Shown: positions 9,894-47,955 of the stretch, one piece after another
Layout: the number at the start of each line of letters is the position of its first letter
Position numbering within the stretch: position 1 is the first letter of the stretch
NCBI GenBank assembly: GCA_002255985.1
Contig: NKIR01000004.1
Span: 124,001-188,000 of the forward strand
DNA from: Sphingomonadaceae bacterium PASS1
GTDB taxonomy: Bacteria > Pseudomonadota > Alphaproteobacteria > Sphingomonadales > Sphingomonadaceae
Direction: 5' to 3'
DNA length: 64,000 nucleotides
Position numbers and translations under genes: made by a program
Notes under the pieces: model-generated
Told to the model about the DNA's origin: nothing
Databases searched by the model: none
What the model saw: the letters and a program-made list of their open reading frames with translations, nothing else

Positions 9894-12092
9894 TTAGCTT
9901 TCCATCCAGTCCTTAAAGAAGCTTTCATGGGCATTGCGCAGTGTTGCGATGGGAACGTCAAAGCCCGGCCCTGCGACCGACGTTCCGCCAACCGTACCTA
10001 TCCGCGTCATCGGAATGCCTGCGGCCTGTATTTGGTCCGCAGCGGCGCTGGTCACAACATAGCGCGCCTGGTCTTCGCCAAAGGCGGTGAAGGCATCGCC
10101 GATTTCTTCGAGCGCACATCCCTTGCCGCTGGCCAACGCCATTTCGGTCAAGGCCACAAGCAAACCACCGTCGGCAACGTCATGCACCGCATTGACCTTG
10201 CCGTCTTGAATCAGCTGACGGACAAATTCCGCGTGCGCCCGTTCTTGGCCGAGGTCGACCGATGGCGCGGCGCCATCTTCACGGCCATGCAGTTCGCGCA
10301 GCCATAATGACTGGCCCAGATGCCCATTATTGTGGCCAATGACGAAGATGCCGTCGTCGTCGGTTTTAAACCCAATCGTCGCCATCTTGCTGATGTCTTC
10401 CAGTACACCCACGCCCCCAATGGCTGGCGTCGGCAAAATCGCGCTGCCACCGCCGGTGGCCTTGCTTTCATTGTATAGCGACACATTGCCCGACACGATT
10501 GGGTAATCGAGCGCGCGGCACGCGTCGCCCATCCCTTCGAGGCAGCCGACAATCTGCGCCATGATTTCGGGGCGCTGCGGGTTGGCGAAGTTGAGGCAGT
10601 TGGTGATCGCAAGCGGCGTTGCGCCGACCGCGCTGATGTTGCGATAGGTTTCGGCCACTGCTTGCTTGCCGCCTTCATACGGGTCGGCATAGCAATAACG
10701 CGGGGTGCAATCGGTGCTCATCGCCAGCGCGCGGTTGGTACCGTGAATGCGCACGACGGCTGCATCACCGCCCGAAAGCTGCGCCGTGTCGCCGCCGACC
10801 TGGCTATCATATTGCTGCCAAATCCACGCACGTGACGCGATGTCGGGGCTTGCCATCAGCTTAAGCAAATCGGCGCCGATATCCGTGCTGGCGGGAACAT
10901 TGCCGAGCGGTTTGACGTTGGCCCAAGCCTTATATTCTTCCTTCGACGCCGCGGGGCGGTCGTACAAAGGCGCGTCTTCGGCCAATGGTCCAAGCGGAAT
11001 GTCGCAGACGACCTCGCCCTTCCACGTTAGCACCATATGGCCCGTGTCGGTGACTTCGCCGATGACCGCGAAATCCAGTTCCCATTTGTCGAAAATGGCC
11101 TTCGCAAATTCCTCGCGGCCGGGTTTGAGCACCATGAGCATGCGCTCCTGGCTTTCCGACAGCATCATTTCATACGGCGTCATGCCCTCTTCGCGGCATG
11201 GCACCTTGTCCATGTCGAGGATGATGCCGGCCTTGCCATTGGTCGCCATTTCGACGCTTGAGCTGGTCAGGCCAGCCGCGCCCATATCCTGAATCGCGAC
11301 AATCGCATCCGACGCCATCAGTTCAAGGCATGCCTCAATCAGCAGCTTTTCGGTGAATGGATCACCGACCTGAACCGTCGGGCGCTTTTCTTCGATGTCT
11401 GCGCCGAAATCCGCCGATGCCATGGTCGCGCCATGAATACCGTCGCGGCCTGTCTTGGACCCAACATAGACGATCGGGTTGCCAAGGCCGGTTGCGGCCG
11501 AATAGAAAATCTTGTCCTGATCGGCGACGCCAACGGTCATTGCGTTGACGAGGATGTTGCCATCATAAGCAGGGTGAAAATTGGTTTCGCCGCCCACGGT
11601 GGGAACGCCAACGCAATTGCCATAGCCGCCAATGCCCGCAACCACGCCCTGCACAAGATGCTTCATCTTGGGATGGTCCGGGCGTCCGAAGCGCAGAGCG
11701 TTCATATTCGCCACGGGGCGCGCACCCATTGTGAAAACGTCGCGCAAAATACCGCCAACGCCGGTCGCCGCACCCTGATAGGGTTCGATGTATGATGGGT
11801 GGTTGTGCGATTCCATTTTGAAGATCGCGGCAAGCTTGCTGCCGTTCGGGCCTTCGCCAATGTCGATAACGCCCGCATTCTCACCGGGGCCGCAAATGAC
11901 CCAAGGCGCCTCGGTCGGCAGTTTCTTCAAATGGATGCGTGACGATTTGTAGGAACAATGTTCCGACCACATCACCGAAAATATGCCGAGTTCGACCATG
12001 TTGGGCACACGGCCCATGGCGTGCAAAATGCGCGCATATTCTTCTTCATTGAGACCATGGTCGGCGACGATTTGGGGCGTGATTTCAGACAT
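9894..12092 (-). CDS. purL: Phosphoribosylformylglycinamidine synthase subunit PurL
   Basis: PurL converts formylglycinamide ribonucleotide to the amidine with ATP in purine synthesis. The 732-residue length is that of the small PurL, which needs separate PurS and PurQ subunits; neither is in the window. Conserved stretches include [11 protein letters not shown] near residue 45, the ATP-binding [16 protein letters not shown] segment near 112, the [12 protein letters not shown] motif, and VHDVADGGL near residue 640. The gene is preceded on its strand by a strong terminator hairpin of an upstream transcript (12140-12165), so its promoter must lie in the short gap 12093-12139 or transcription must read through. 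No promoter was recognised there. Confidence 0.97.
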
Positions 12093-12139
12093 GAAACGGC
12101 CTTAGCGATGCGGCAATTTTTGTGCCACATAAAATAAAT

Positions 12140-12165
12140 GGGCGCTGGTATTGCTACCAGCGCCC
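12140..12165 (-). terminator. Strong hairpin terminator upstream of purL
   Basis: On the minus strand an 11-bp perfect stem (GGGCGCTGGTA / TACCAGCGCCC) closed by a GCAA tetraloop is followed by ATTTATTTTATG. This has the form of an intrinsic terminator. It ends a minus-strand transcript arriving from the 12.2-12.5 kb region just before purL. It could also act as an attenuator-like element in the purL leader. Confidence 0.7.
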
Positions 12166-12516
12166 ACTGCGTCTGATTTTGGAAGTCCTTGGCCACTAGG
12201 GCCATTCTTTCCGCTTTCTGACGTCCGGTTCTCCAATCTGACCCGAAGGCCATTTCGGTTCACCTTGGTACTTTGGGTATCCTATCTGGCGTTGCTTTTC
12301 TTGCGATCGGCCGCACATGATATTCGTTTTCTTCGTACCCACCGCCTCTGCCACACTCCCGGTCTTGCGACCGATTGCCTGCTGATTTGGTGATCCTGCA
12401 TCCACTCTGGTCCGCTCTGCTTTCCCGTTTTCGGTTCCACTTTGCGTCTCAGCCTGTCTGCCTGATGACTTGAAGGTCTCATGCTTTTCGAGTCGCACAA
12501 AGCGGCAAATGCCAAG

Positions 12517-12525
12517 TTATCCACA
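12517..12525 (+). promoter_or_regulatory. Perfect DnaA-box sequence
   Basis: TTATCCACA, the consensus DnaA-binding nonamer, lies between the two candidate RNAs. A single box without clustering or an AT-rich unwinding region does not indicate an origin. It may be chance, or a DnaA-responsive site in the promoter of the downstream minus-strand transcript. Confidence 0.3.
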
Positions 12526-12571
12526 GGCGGGCCACTTCGCGGTGGACAATATGGAGAACAACTTTGCGGGT

Positions 12572-12686
12572 GAAACAGAAACGGCCTCCACGCAGTGCAT
12601 GGAGGCCGTAATATTGTCCGGGGGCGAGGGAGAGAGGAGGAGAGTGCCGCCCGGTCAATTTGTGTTTCGGCAATTGCTTGCCGTTG
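12572..12686 (-). ncRNA. Candidate sRNA with an anti-Shine-Dalgarno loop
   Basis: Read on the minus strand, three hairpins follow each other in about 115 bases. The first is CGGCAA-GCAA-TTGCCG (12668-12683). The second (12618-12654) has a GC stem with a two-base bulge and a C/U-rich loop containing CTCTCCTCCTCTCTCCC, complementary to a ribosome-binding site. The third is a 10-bp stem (12581-12609) followed by TTTCTGTTT, as in an intrinsic terminator. A sigma70-like promoter stands just upstream. Alphaproteobacterial sRNAs with CCUCC loops, such as the SuhB type studied in Sphingopyxis, have this plan. The family assignment is inference from layout only. Confidence 0.55.
12581..12609 (-). terminator. 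Terminator hairpin of the candidate sRNA
   Basis: The perfect 10-bp inverted repeat ACGGCCTCCA / TGGAGGCCGT is followed on the minus strand by TTTCTGTTTC. The T-tract is interrupted, so termination may be partial. Confidence 0.5.
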
Positions 12687-12691
12687 AGATC

Positions 12692-12720
12692 CAAATAGAG
12701 GCGGAGCATTTATGCTGCAA
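12692..12720 (-). promoter_or_regulatory. Candidate sigma70 promoter of the sRNA
   Basis: On the minus strand TTGCAG (12720-12715) and TATTTG (12697-12692) are separated by exactly 17 bases. This predicts a start near 12685, immediately before the first hairpin of the candidate sRNA. The match is good in spacing and moderate in sequence. Confidence 0.4.
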
Positions 12721-12732
12721 TTGCGAAAAGAA

Positions 12733-12765
12733 TAGGGTGAGTTGCATGTTTTGCAACTCACCCTA
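12733..12765 (-). terminator. Terminator after the SDR gene
   Basis: A 13-14 bp perfect stem (AGGGTGAGTTGCA / TGCAACTCACCCT) with a five-base loop lies 50 bases past the SDR stop. It is followed on the minus strand by TTCTTTTCG. It should end the minus-strand SDR/acyl-CoA dehydrogenase operon. Confidence 0.75.
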
Positions 12766-12817
12766 ATTTCCTTAGAAATGCGTCAAACGCATTCGCATTT
12801 ACGGATGAAAAAAGCCG

Positions 12818-13612
12818 TTAAGGCGCAATTCCATTACCCGGAAGCGATGCGTTGACGATGCCGCCGTCGCAGGCAATTGTCTCCCCAACGATATAATCGC
12901 CAGCACGCGCCGCCAAGAAAATCGCGAGTCCCGCCATATCTTCGGGTGTACCGATGCGTGGGAACGGGATATTTTTGCCGACCGCATCGGCATGGTCACG
13001 CGCCGCTTTGTTCATGTCCGACTGGAATGCGCCCGGCGCAATGCCCGACACAAGGATGTTGTCCTTGACCAGCTCGGCGGCCAAACGGCGGGTCAGGTGA
13101 ATGACCGCAGCCTTTGATGCCTGATAGCTGTAGGTTTGCCATGGGTTGATGCGCAGGCCGTCAATCGACGCGATGTTGATAACCTTGCCGGGCCGATCAA
13201 ATGTCGCTGCCGCTTTCAACTGCGGATGCAACGCTTGCGTCAGGAAGAACAAGGATTTGACGTTCAGGTCCATCACGCGGTCCCAGCCGGCTTCGGGGAA
13301 TTGACCAAAATCGGCGCCCCACGCAGCACCTGCATTGTTCACCAGAATGTCGACCTTTTCCTCACGCTCGGCAATTTGTGCCGCGAGTGAAAGGCAACCG
13401 TCAACGGTCGACAGATCGCAAGGCAGGCCAATGACCTGATTGCCAAACTCGGCAACGGTTTCTTCGATTTGGTCGACCTTGCGCGCGCTGATGTACACGC
13501 GTGCCGCGCCCGCTTTCAAATAGCCTTCGACAATCATCTTGCCGATTCCGCGCGATCCGCCGGTGACCAGGGCCACGCGGCCATTGAGGTTGAATAAAGT
13601 TTGAATGTCCAT
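12818..13612 (-). CDS. SDR family oxidoreductase
   Basis: This is a classical short-chain dehydrogenase of 264 residues. It has the cofactor motif TGGSRGIG near residue 17, NNAGAAWG, and a catalytic Ser...YxxxK (YSYQASK). The C-terminal segment holds the usual IACDGG. A basic residue after the first motif (the ARK in ISARK) suggests NADP preference. It is the last gene of a minus-strand operon after two acyl-CoA dehydrogenases, 13 bases downstream, so a 3-hydroxyacyl-CoA or related alcohol in lipid breakdown is the likely substrate class; that is inference. An AAGGACA ribosome site precedes the ATG, and a strong terminator follows. Confidence 0.9.
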   Translation of the reverse strand: MDIQTLFNLNGRVALVTGGSRGIGKMIVEGYLKAGAARVYISARKVDQIEETVAEFGNQVIGLPCDLSTVDGCLSLAAQIAEREEKVDILVNNAGAAWGADFGQFPEAGWDRVMDLNVKSLFFLTQALHPQLKAAATFDRPGKVINIASIDGLRINPWQTYSYQASKAAVIHLTRRLAAELVKDNILVSGIAPGAFQSDMNKAARDHADAVGKNIPFPRIGTPEDMAGLAIFLAARAGDYIVGETIACDGGIVNASLPGNGIAP

Positions 13613-45843: not shown

Positions 45844-47955
45844 TCAGGGCCGATAACGGCGCCTCGCATGCTTCACGGCGTCGACCCATTCAAAATGAAC
45901 CGGCTTATATTTGCCCGCGACAAACAGCTTCATCTGGTCCGTATAATGCGGCGATTCCGGCCGTGTGGTTGCCGCACCGTAAGGCTGGATTGATTCCGAT
46001 ACGACGCCGCCATTTTTGTCCCAGCGGATCAGCATGATGTAGCTGTCGCCATGCCGAACGCGGACCTTGCCATCGGCTTGGTCGGGATCCCACATCGTGG
46101 TCGCGCGCAAAGCGTCACTGCCGCCGAACATGGGCAAGTCGACATTGCCACGCCGCAGCCGCTGGATATCGCCAAGCTGCGGGTCAATTCTGCCAAAGCG
46201 TTTGTTGAATTCGTCAACTGCTTCCTGAAGCGTTTTGCGGGCATCGGGCATTGGGTCACCGCGCCAGTTTGGGCGTGCACCAAAACGAATGATGCGTTCG
46301 GCCAATGCGTCTGCATCGCCCTTCCCGTCACTTGACCAATCCCAGCTGGCCAAAAGCTTTTGGGCCTTGGCGAGCTCCGGCGCATCTTTCAGGTCCAACG
46401 CGGCAAAGGACGCCATCCATGGCCCGACCCAGCTCTGCTTGCTGTAAGTCATGTCCATCTTGATCGCGAGCAGCTCGTCCGGCGTGATTGACGTATCCGC
46501 CGTCAGCAGTTCGGTGGCGCGCAGCCCCCGGTTGGTCATGCCGCGTTCGATGCCCAAATATGGCGAATAGTCCGCCGGGTTCATTTCCGAACCCGGACCA
46601 GCCGCCAGAAACGGCGTATTGTTGGCATTCTGGACAAAGCCCGATGCTGGATCGACAATCTTGGGATAGCGATCAAAGCCGACAGGGCCGGACCACATGG
46701 CAGCGGACGTATCGCCCGGAAGCTGCTTGGTGTAATCATAGCCCGGTTTGCGATCAGGGAAGAGCGCATTGTAGATATAGGCAACGCGGCCGGTTTTGTC
46801 GGCATAGATGAAGTTGGTGGCAGGAATCCCGCCAATCGACATGGACTTGGTCCACTCGTCCCAATTCGTCGCCTTGGTGTTGCGGTAATATTGCTCGACG
46901 ACCTTTACGCTGTCGATTCCGGCGTAGCGGATGGCGAAATAGCCCTTATCATTCTTGATAACCGGACCATGTACCGAGCGATACACTGTCTGCGGCACCG
47001 GCAGGCTGAACGGCCCGAACTTGACGGGCAACCAGACACGCTTTGAATTCAGCGGCAGCCATTTGCCATCATAGCGGTATTTGTCGCCCGCATCGTTCAT
47101 CACCAATTTATAGACATCAATCAGGTCCGGCCGATTGACCGTGTTGGTCCAGCCAAGGTTGCGGTTATGCCCCAGCAGTACGAATGGCGATCCCGGGAAC
47201 AATGCACCCGCCATATCAAGGCCTTCGCCCGAATGGGTCACGGCCTCATACCATGCCACTTGCCCTTCATAAGGCTGGTGCGAATTGGAAATCAGCCAGG
47301 TCTTACCATCGGCCATACGCTTTGGCGCGAGGGCAAAGGCATTGGACCCGTTCATTTCGGGATCCCGTCCGATTGGCGTCATTGGTGCTGCGCTCTCTTT
47401 GGGCTGCGGCTTGCCTTCGGTGAGCGCACCGATTGCGCCATCAAGGCCGTAAAAGAACGGCGCGCGCAGAACAAAGCCGGTCACGATATCCTGTCCGGTT
47501 ACCGGAAACAGTTTCGACAGCCTGACTTCGCCCGGATGCTTCGACGCATAATAATTGAGTCCGGCGGCATAAGCCTCGCACACCGCACGGACCTCAGGCG
47601 ACAATTCCATATAATGCTTTTCGGCGGTTTCCCGCGCGCCCAACAAGTGCATGACATAATCGACCTTGGCCCCGTCAGAGCCAGCCAACGCGCCGTAACG
47701 GCCACGGGTCATTGCGACGACATCTTCTATGGTCGAAAAATCATCTTCGGCATGCGCGTAGGCAAGGCCATAAGCCGTGTCCGCATCGGTCGCGCCATTG
47801 ATGTGCGGCACGCCATATTCGTCGCGCACAATCTCGGCATCATAGGTCCGCTTGGCGGTTTCATATTCAGTCGCTGCCAATGGTTCCCACAAGGCACCGG
47901 CGCCTGCAACCACCGCAGCAAGTGCCAAAGACGCCCACAAAAACTTACGCATCAT
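45844..47955 (-). CDS. Penicillin-acylase-family Ntn hydrolase
   Basis: This 703-residue precursor belongs to the N-terminal nucleophile acylases, a group that includes penicillin, aculeacin and N-acyl-homoserine-lactone acylases. It has a signal-anchor at 1-25 and an alpha-subunit part with RDEYGVPHINGATDAD near residue 45. The autoprocessing site is MNGSNAFALAPKR near residue 201, where Ser would become the N-terminal nucleophile of the beta subunit. The expected HNRNLGWTNTVNRPD stretch follows. The mature enzyme would be periplasmic. Possible roles are peptide/amide scavenging or signal quenching. Confidence 0.9.
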   Translation of the reverse strand: MMRKFLWASLALAAVVAGAGALWEPLAATEYETAKRTYDAEIVRDEYGVPHINGATDADTAYGLAYAHAEDDFSTIEDVVAMTRGRYGALAGSDGAKVDYVMHLLGARETAEKHYMELSPEVRAVCEAYAAGLNYYASKHPGEVRLSKLFPVTGQDIVTGFVLRAPFFYGLDGAIGALTEGKPQPKESAAPMTPIGRDPEMNGSNAFALAPKRMADGKTWLISNSHQPYEGQVAWYEAVTHSGEGLDMAGALFPGSPFVLLGHNRNLGWTNTVNRPDLIDVYKLVMNDAGDKYRYDGKWLPLNSKRVWLPVKFGPFSLPVPQTVYRSVHGPVIKNDKGYFAIRYAGIDSVKVVEQYYRNTKATNWDEWTKSMSIGGIPATNFIYADKTGRVAYIYNALFPDRKPGYDYTKQLPGDTSAAMWSGPVGFDRYPKIVDPASGFVQNANNTPFLAAGPGSEMNPADYSPYLGIERGMTNRGLRATELLTADTSITPDELLAIKMDMTYSKQSWVGPWMASFAALDLKDAPELAKAQKLLASWDWSSDGKGDADALAERIIRFGARPNWRGDPMPDARKTLQEAVDEFNKRFGRIDPQLGDIQRLRRGNVDLPMFGGSDALRATTMWDPDQADGKVRVRHGDSYIMLIRWDKNGGVVSESIQPYGAATTRPESPHYTDQMKLFVAGKYKPVHFEWVDAVKHARRRYRP

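Follow-up and report, generated by a model that had tools for sequence, protein, structure and literature searches.

A predicted anti-Shine-Dalgarno small RNA of Sphingorhabdus with a promoter array in common with SuhB

What is encoded in the gap between purL and a short-chain dehydrogenase gene in Sphingomonadaceae bacterium PASS1? The DNA that we analyzed, which we call the window, is a 64,000-nucleotide stretch of this genome, and from the start of purL (12092) to the end of the dehydrogenase gene (12818) it has no long genes. A sequence-only reading of the window had described a minus-strand promoter-like pair, three hairpins and a C/U-rich loop here, in a gene-free stretch between purL and a lipid-catabolic operon. 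Every one of these elements is found in the sequence. The short ORFs that cross the RNA are not conserved, and the gap is flanked downstream by purL (9894–12092, minus strand; Pfam AIRS, AIRS_C and FGAR-AT_linker) and upstream by an SDR/acyl-CoA dehydrogenase operon, whose short-chain dehydrogenase gene (12818–13612, minus strand; Pfam adh_short) is the syntenic neighbor. The feature is real: a structured intergenic RNA is encoded on the minus strand at 12685–12573.

The predicted transcript of about 113 nt (12573–12685) is supported by its fold, by covariance-model matches and by two-sided changes, and we placed its start at A12685 (±2) from the −10-like hexamer. Hairpin 1 (12668–12683, minus strand) is CGGCAA-GCAA-TTGCCG with a GCAA loop, and it has both the fold and two-sided pair changes behind it, as does hairpin 2. 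Hairpin 2, the anti-Shine-Dalgarno (anti-SD) hairpin (12613–12659, minus strand), has a bulged C12649 on its 5' arm and a 20-nt C/U-rich loop, ACTCTCCTCCTCTCTCCCTC (12626–12645), with CCUCC at 12640–12636. Hairpin 3 (12581–12609, minus strand) is called as an intrinsic terminator by the fold and the terminator scan, and is followed by the T tract TTCTGTTT (12580–12573). The minimum free energy (MFE) of the RNA is −52.3 kcal/mol (z −6.7); shuffled sequences average −30.6 and none of 200 is as good, and the RNAs of five relatives fold with z of −4.4 to −6.6. The terminator scan of 12100–12820 found seven terminator-like sites where 0.9 were expected, hairpin 3 among them. The bulge in the second stem, which the sequence-only reading had pointed out, is a single base on the 5' arm in all 6 of the single-sequence folds listed, across three stem variants.

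Two other features of the gap are worth recording. About 45 nt ahead of the start of purL, the minus strand has a strong, terminator-like hairpin (12137–12168) whose tail is T-rich. Directly past the small RNA (sRNA) there is a conserved block (12516–12563) with an exact TTATCCACA (plus strand, 12517–12525) and a plus-strand GGTGGACAAWATGGAGRA; we found no conserved ORF in it among the relatives compared. We rejected a replication origin near TTATCCACA, as the window has 11 one-mismatch boxes where 7.9 would be expected, and the skew does not clearly switch there.

With BLASTn we found a homologue of the sRNA in 29 of 61 genomes; all 29 are among the 37 Sphingorhabdus genomes and none among the 24 others of the order. 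The covariance model was built from 23 of these homologues, leaving out L023, which is without hairpin 1, and five diverged ones (L026–L030). It matches 39 of 41 Sphingorhabdus genomes at E ≤ 1, and the weakest best match has an E of 0.014. G011, which has no covariance-model match at E ≤ 1, has a 41-bit orthologue downstream of an exact copy of the promoter motif, and no orthologue was found in G023, which is 86% complete. An order-wide search of 396 genomes with the model gave 18 positives, seven from Sphingorhabdus and eleven from another genus (g28). We did not count the eleven as orthologues because they are located after a phasin gene and have no array there; the identity of the phasin was checked with Pfam in 3 of the 11 and taken from the upstream sequence in the remainder.

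In the source genome, apart from the locus itself, the model matches at E ≤ 1 only on the opposite strand of that position, and as far as the covariance model sees, the sRNA is single-copy there. Weak plus-strand matches also exist, because hairpin 3 is palindromic. Further weak matches (E 0.3–1) were seen at G009:C39 and elsewhere. The neighborhood is largely kept: a short-chain dehydrogenase gene is immediately upstream in 35 of 41 sRNA loci, and purL is inside the retrieved stretch in 22 of the 29 loci L002–L030.

The earlier reading had looked to compensatory changes in the stems as a test, and this test did not refute it: such changes are present in the wider set of orthologues and sparse among the close relatives. 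In a model-fitted alignment of 40 orthologues, there are two-sided changes in 20 of 29 pairs (71 cells), compared with a shuffled mean of 11.6 and at most 14 for slid structures, and 98.1% of cells are paired versus at most 46% when slid; these are the best covariation figures we have, and they come from an alignment that leans towards structure. In a MAFFT alignment of the 23 closer relatives, 99.1% of cells are paired and just 3 of 29 pairs (8 cells) have double changes. Sliding the structure on that alignment gave no double changes in five versions and 1 in another; three such pairs are also reached by 12 of 500 shuffles, and the pair-type count is not above shuffles. RNAalifold on all 29 rows did not recover hairpin 2, because five rows are misaligned there.

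Folding single sequences does not depend on any alignment. In 36 of 40 orthologues (a set that omits L081, with its dyad spacing of N6), we found the three hairpins in order, even where identity to the window falls to 50%. The exposed anti-SD loop of the sequence-only reading held up well here, as 38 of the 40 have the C/U loop and 36 of the 40 have CCTCC or CTCCTC in it. Two close relatives (L014 and L015) have a C-run in place of CCUCC and keep the stems, and in L011 and L023 the C/U hairpin is not formed in the MFE structure.

These results bear on whether there is an sRNA here at all. The locus could instead be a double terminator with a C/U tract that arose by chance, or a gene for a small protein, and we consider this very improbable. 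A plus-strand start, ATGGAGRAYAA, is common to 22 of 28 aligned relatives, the consensus scan found no promoter, and there are the plus-strand model matches mentioned above. However, the ORFs that begin at ATGGAGRAYAA vary from 5 to 71 aa, the minus-strand frames are unlike among seven close relatives, hairpins 1 and 2 covary, and a known sRNA has the same promoter array. We rejected a small protein on either strand, since the short ORFs across the sRNA are not conserved.

We then compared the sRNA with described families. Rfam searches with the suhB and alpha-r models had been proposed by the earlier reading as a check, and no family reaches its threshold at the locus. The suhB model (RF00519, threshold 41 bits) gave no match over 12300–13000 up to an E of 5, and the alpha-r14/cuckoo model (RF02344) gave 18.2 bits at an E of 0.48, compared with a threshold of 58.8. 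The alpha-r14 RNAs, such as NfeR1, also have three hairpins, an anti-SD motif in a loop and stems of variable sequence, going by the available parts of the descriptions (PMC10746234, PMC3927594). They are defined there by three hairpins that each carry CCUCCUCCC in the loop (PMC10746234), whereas the RNA described here has one anti-SD loop, in hairpin 2 alone, and no CCUCCUCCC. An alpha-r14 match elsewhere in the source genome (27.1 bits) was rejected: it does not reach the threshold, and matches also appear in 9 of 14 control genomes.

The comparison with SuhB that the sequence-only reading had drawn stands for the promoter and fails for the RNA itself. By promoter array the sRNA would go with SuhB, as the array is present in front of it, although that array was defined in this analysis and is not part of the family description; by its model, the sRNA is not a member of RF00519. 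What it has in common with SuhB of Sphingopyxis granuli TFA and with MmgR is the promoter array at a fixed distance, an anti-SD pyrimidine motif, a small 5' hairpin and a terminator. The difference is in where the motif is: SuhB-type RNAs read GCCTTTNAGGCATCCTCTCC and have the motif immediately past the first hairpin, and here an extra, bulged hairpin presents it in its loop. Rfam labels the GGCATCCTCTCC RNA suhB and describes it as MmgR. The source genome has its own suhB (C26:202325–202464), which scores 39.5 bits against the 41 required and has the same array and a divergent LysR gene. The suhB model is at threshold in 15 of the 18 array loci scanned and not in the source genome's own suhB locus, in L241 or in L183. 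By the models of SuhB/MmgR and alpha-r14, then, the candidate is a new sRNA family that belongs to neither. On these comparisons it is a predicted family at the level of the genus Sphingorhabdus, absent from Rfam and tied to SuhB by its promoter. In the literature that we searched, we recognized no paper as describing the sRNA or the array.

The promoter itself has a −35-like TTGCAG (12715–12720) and a −10-like TATTTG (12692–12697) on the minus strand, with a 17-nt spacer; across 28 aligned homologues, the columns of the −10 hexamer agree at 84% on average. A sigma-70 consensus scan found no promoter, with 0.5 expected, as the hexamers are too weak to be picked up in this way, and the promoter call therefore rests on conservation. 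Overlapping the −35 is TTTTCGCAATTGCA (12716–12729, minus strand), the conserved proximal half of the array, which is exact in 28 of the 29 BLAST homologues, has one mismatch in the remaining one, and has one exact copy in the source genome. The only one-mismatch copy in that genome (L040:1501–1514, contig C26) is before a gene that by eye is glutamyl-tRNA-synthetase-like, and chance alone would give about one. The distal half is the dyad TTGCAAAACATGCAA (12742–12756, minus strand), centered about 63 bp before the predicted start of the sRNA, and it has the T-N11-A pattern at which LysR-type regulators bind. Together the halves read TTGCA-N5-TGCAA-N17-GCAATTGC (12756–12717, minus strand) and reach the −35. 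The general form of this 40-bp array, TTGCR-N5-YGCAA-N17-GCANTTGC, precedes both the sRNA and SuhB/MmgR (RF00519) in the Sphingomonadaceae.

There is a perfect inverted repeat around the dyad (12733–12765), which the terminator scan lists as a terminator-like site of the dehydrogenase gene, on the minus strand. In close relatives the dyad is enclosed in such a stem: in 29 of 41 orthologous loci, all 6 of the flanking positions can pair. Only 2 or 3 do so in eight diverged loci, and the 110 suhB arrays average 2.8 of 6. This suggests that the dyad is a DNA element in itself.

How widely is the array used? A scan of 84,980 genomes for the strict form found at least 120 stretches, and among the matches listed, 116 are from Sphingomonadales, three from metagenome-assembled genomes with wider names and one from Dyadobacter. 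The loci that we retrieved contain 147 distinct arrays, a count that requires TGCAA and so excludes orthologues with CGCAA. SuhB-type RNAs, with GGCAT[C/T]CTCTCC, follow 110 of them and orthologues of the sRNA follow 31; the others are before a CoA-transferase gene (three) or are single cases (L183, L191 and L262). L183:468–507, from Erythrobacter dokdonensis, has the array before another C/U-loop hairpin instead of suhB. The CoA-transferase arrays (L159:817–856, L178:5627–5666 and L188:7299–7338) have the same spacing, are 52–53 nt before the gene and lie 1.7–2.7 kb from suhB in three genomes; the gene was checked with Pfam in two of them.

A looser pattern in 16 Sphingorhabdus genomes found both arrays in seven, the sRNA array alone in seven and the suhB array alone in two, and its reversed control found none in all 20 genomes searched. 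Class-wide, this kind of loose pattern matches 30 of 385 genomes, five of which are the family's own five, and the reversed control matches nine. We read the 25 matches outside the family as chance; G496 has the N5/N17 spacing, G556 has TCGCAATTGC at N5/N18, and none has both. A regulon scan of the source genome with the dyad alone gave 69 palindromic sites versus 24 in the reversed control and was set aside as too loose.

The likely reader of the array is a GcvA-like LysR protein encoded divergently from suhB, a candidate that we name from gene position and sequence likeness. In the source genome, the start of this LysR-domain gene is 95 nt from the suhB array. The protein is nearest to GcvA (181.3 against the GcvA cut-off of 288) and also to a solved glycine cleavage activator. 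LysR-controlled promoters have a T-N11-A dyad upstream of the −35 and a second site near the −35. Both can be seen in the array, but T-N11-A follows from our search motif and so does not count as separate evidence. In enterobacteria, GcvA and GcvB are a case where a LysR gene is divergent from a regulatory RNA gene. The arrangement here is the same, with suhB as the RNA gene; what differs is that the score is below the GcvA cut-off, and there is no sign that the RNAs are related.

It is possible, if rather doubtful, that the common control comes from another regulator, or from RNA polymerase alone with the array as an extended promoter. The proximal half does overlap the −35, and a GcvA-like LysR gene is divergent within 600 nt of only 38 of the 110 suhB arrays. 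Where at least 1,100 nt of upstream sequence is present, a LysR gene is near suhB in 33 of 93; none was seen within 600 nt of the other 72 of the 110, including loci from Novosphingobium, Sphingopyxis and Sphingobium. Against this, the distal dyad is far upstream of the hexamers and is held at N5/N17 in 141 of the 147 arrays, and the LysR gene is divergent beside suhB in all 9 Sphingorhabdus genomes with a retrieved suhB array. In L134 it lies between the sRNA and suhB.

Two other known regulators were rejected as readers of the array. The core of the PhaR site, given as YGCR-N-YGCR in the available part of PMC12542648, is in none of 142 strict arrays, and neither is the VtlR box, GCAT-N3-TG-N3-T in the excerpt of PMC7486931. 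AbcR1/VrsA under VtlR in Agrobacterium is similar in having a LysR-type regulator mainly for sRNA promoters, as far as that excerpt describes it (PMC7486931), and differs in the box. A phaR gene (PF07879) was found in 11 of 13 genomes, with no dyad at the promoter side in nine of the 11 loci; L279 and L288 have a common dyad-like site about 410 nt before the PF07879 match.

What would the RNA do? We think it is probably a trans-acting anti-SD repressor, expressed from a promoter with a LysR-type array in common with SuhB that is likely read by the GcvA-like LysR protein. The minus strand would be transcribed from this promoter, and the LysR protein would read the array and so control the sRNA alongside SuhB. 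The C/U loop of hairpin 2 would pair with purine-rich ribosome-binding sites and block the initiation of translation, with hairpin 1 capping the 5' end and hairpin 3 ending transcription. The sRNA would then be a second anti-SD arm under control in common with SuhB, with a mode of action like that of SuhB and the alpha-r14 RNAs. We regard this mechanism as well motivated and unproven; we infer the transcription, the binding of the regulator and its sign, the pairing with mRNAs and any need for Hfq.

The RNA could also be under the control that SuhB is under and act mainly as a sponge or a protein-binding RNA, with Hfq, ribosomes or other sRNAs as its partners, and not by pairing with ribosome-binding sites, which we judge unlikely. 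Loop pairing at the starts of 40 ORFs in the window is only slightly stronger than at internal sites (mean −7.5 versus −6.5 kcal/mol, median −6.5 versus −6.0), too small a margin to name a target, and in L014 and L015 the stems are intact and the loop is C-rich but has no CCUCC. However, 36 of the 40 folded orthologues keep CCTCC or CTCCTC in the loop while the stems vary freely, and the reported site of SuhB action is a 5' UTR. In the part of that report available to us, SuhB is a trans-acting RNA of Sphingopyxis that binds the thnR 5' UTR and lowers thnR translation with Hfq, and growth-rate control of catabolic genes is described there without a named transcription factor (PMC6563040). The strongest loop pairing among the 40 ORFs (−17.4 kcal/mol) is with a penicillin amidase family gene (45844–47955, minus strand).

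With the anti-SD repressor as our preferred reading, the shared array raises the question of where its promoter came from. The sRNA and suhB are on one strand 2.3 kb apart in L134 and 1.9 kb apart in G001, and three Novosphingobium loci (L126, L142 and L216) have tandem suhB-type arrays 180–360 nt apart. We infer that the sRNA promoter may have arisen from a duplicated suhB promoter, which suits both the tandem suhB copies and the proximity of the two RNA genes.

We also looked at phasin genes, at loci L289–L295 (L290 being in the source genome, contig C26, with its stop near 1824). A C/U tract is in the 3' UTR of 7 of the 8 phasin genes read, and in 7 of 7 genomes; six of the tracts lie in the loop of strong hairpins, and the L291 tract in that of a weak hairpin. 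This is possibly a 3'-UTR-derived anti-SD RNA. PhaR-like TGCANTGCA sites are upstream of 7 of the 8 genes.

More broadly, we tentatively suggest, at somewhat below even confidence, that a GcvA-like LysR protein of the Sphingomonadaceae reads a rigid 40-bp array that is nearly exclusive to sRNA genes. The suhB promoter would have been copied in Sphingorhabdus; this copy would have captured a tandem suhB duplicate, or grown from one, and would now drive a structurally new anti-SD RNA. The result would be a repression module of two RNAs, perhaps linked to storage polymers; we raise that link because the phasin mRNA 3' UTRs carry a similar C/U loop and the CoA-transferase gene near suhB has the array in three other genomes.

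The finding adds an uncatalogued sRNA family that is supported by structure. It also gives SuhB a promoter code defined by sequence and a candidate regulator, so that the question of what turns SuhB on comes down to one binding assay and one deletion. The closeness of the sRNA to suhB in two relatives may show a new regulatory RNA arising beside an old one.
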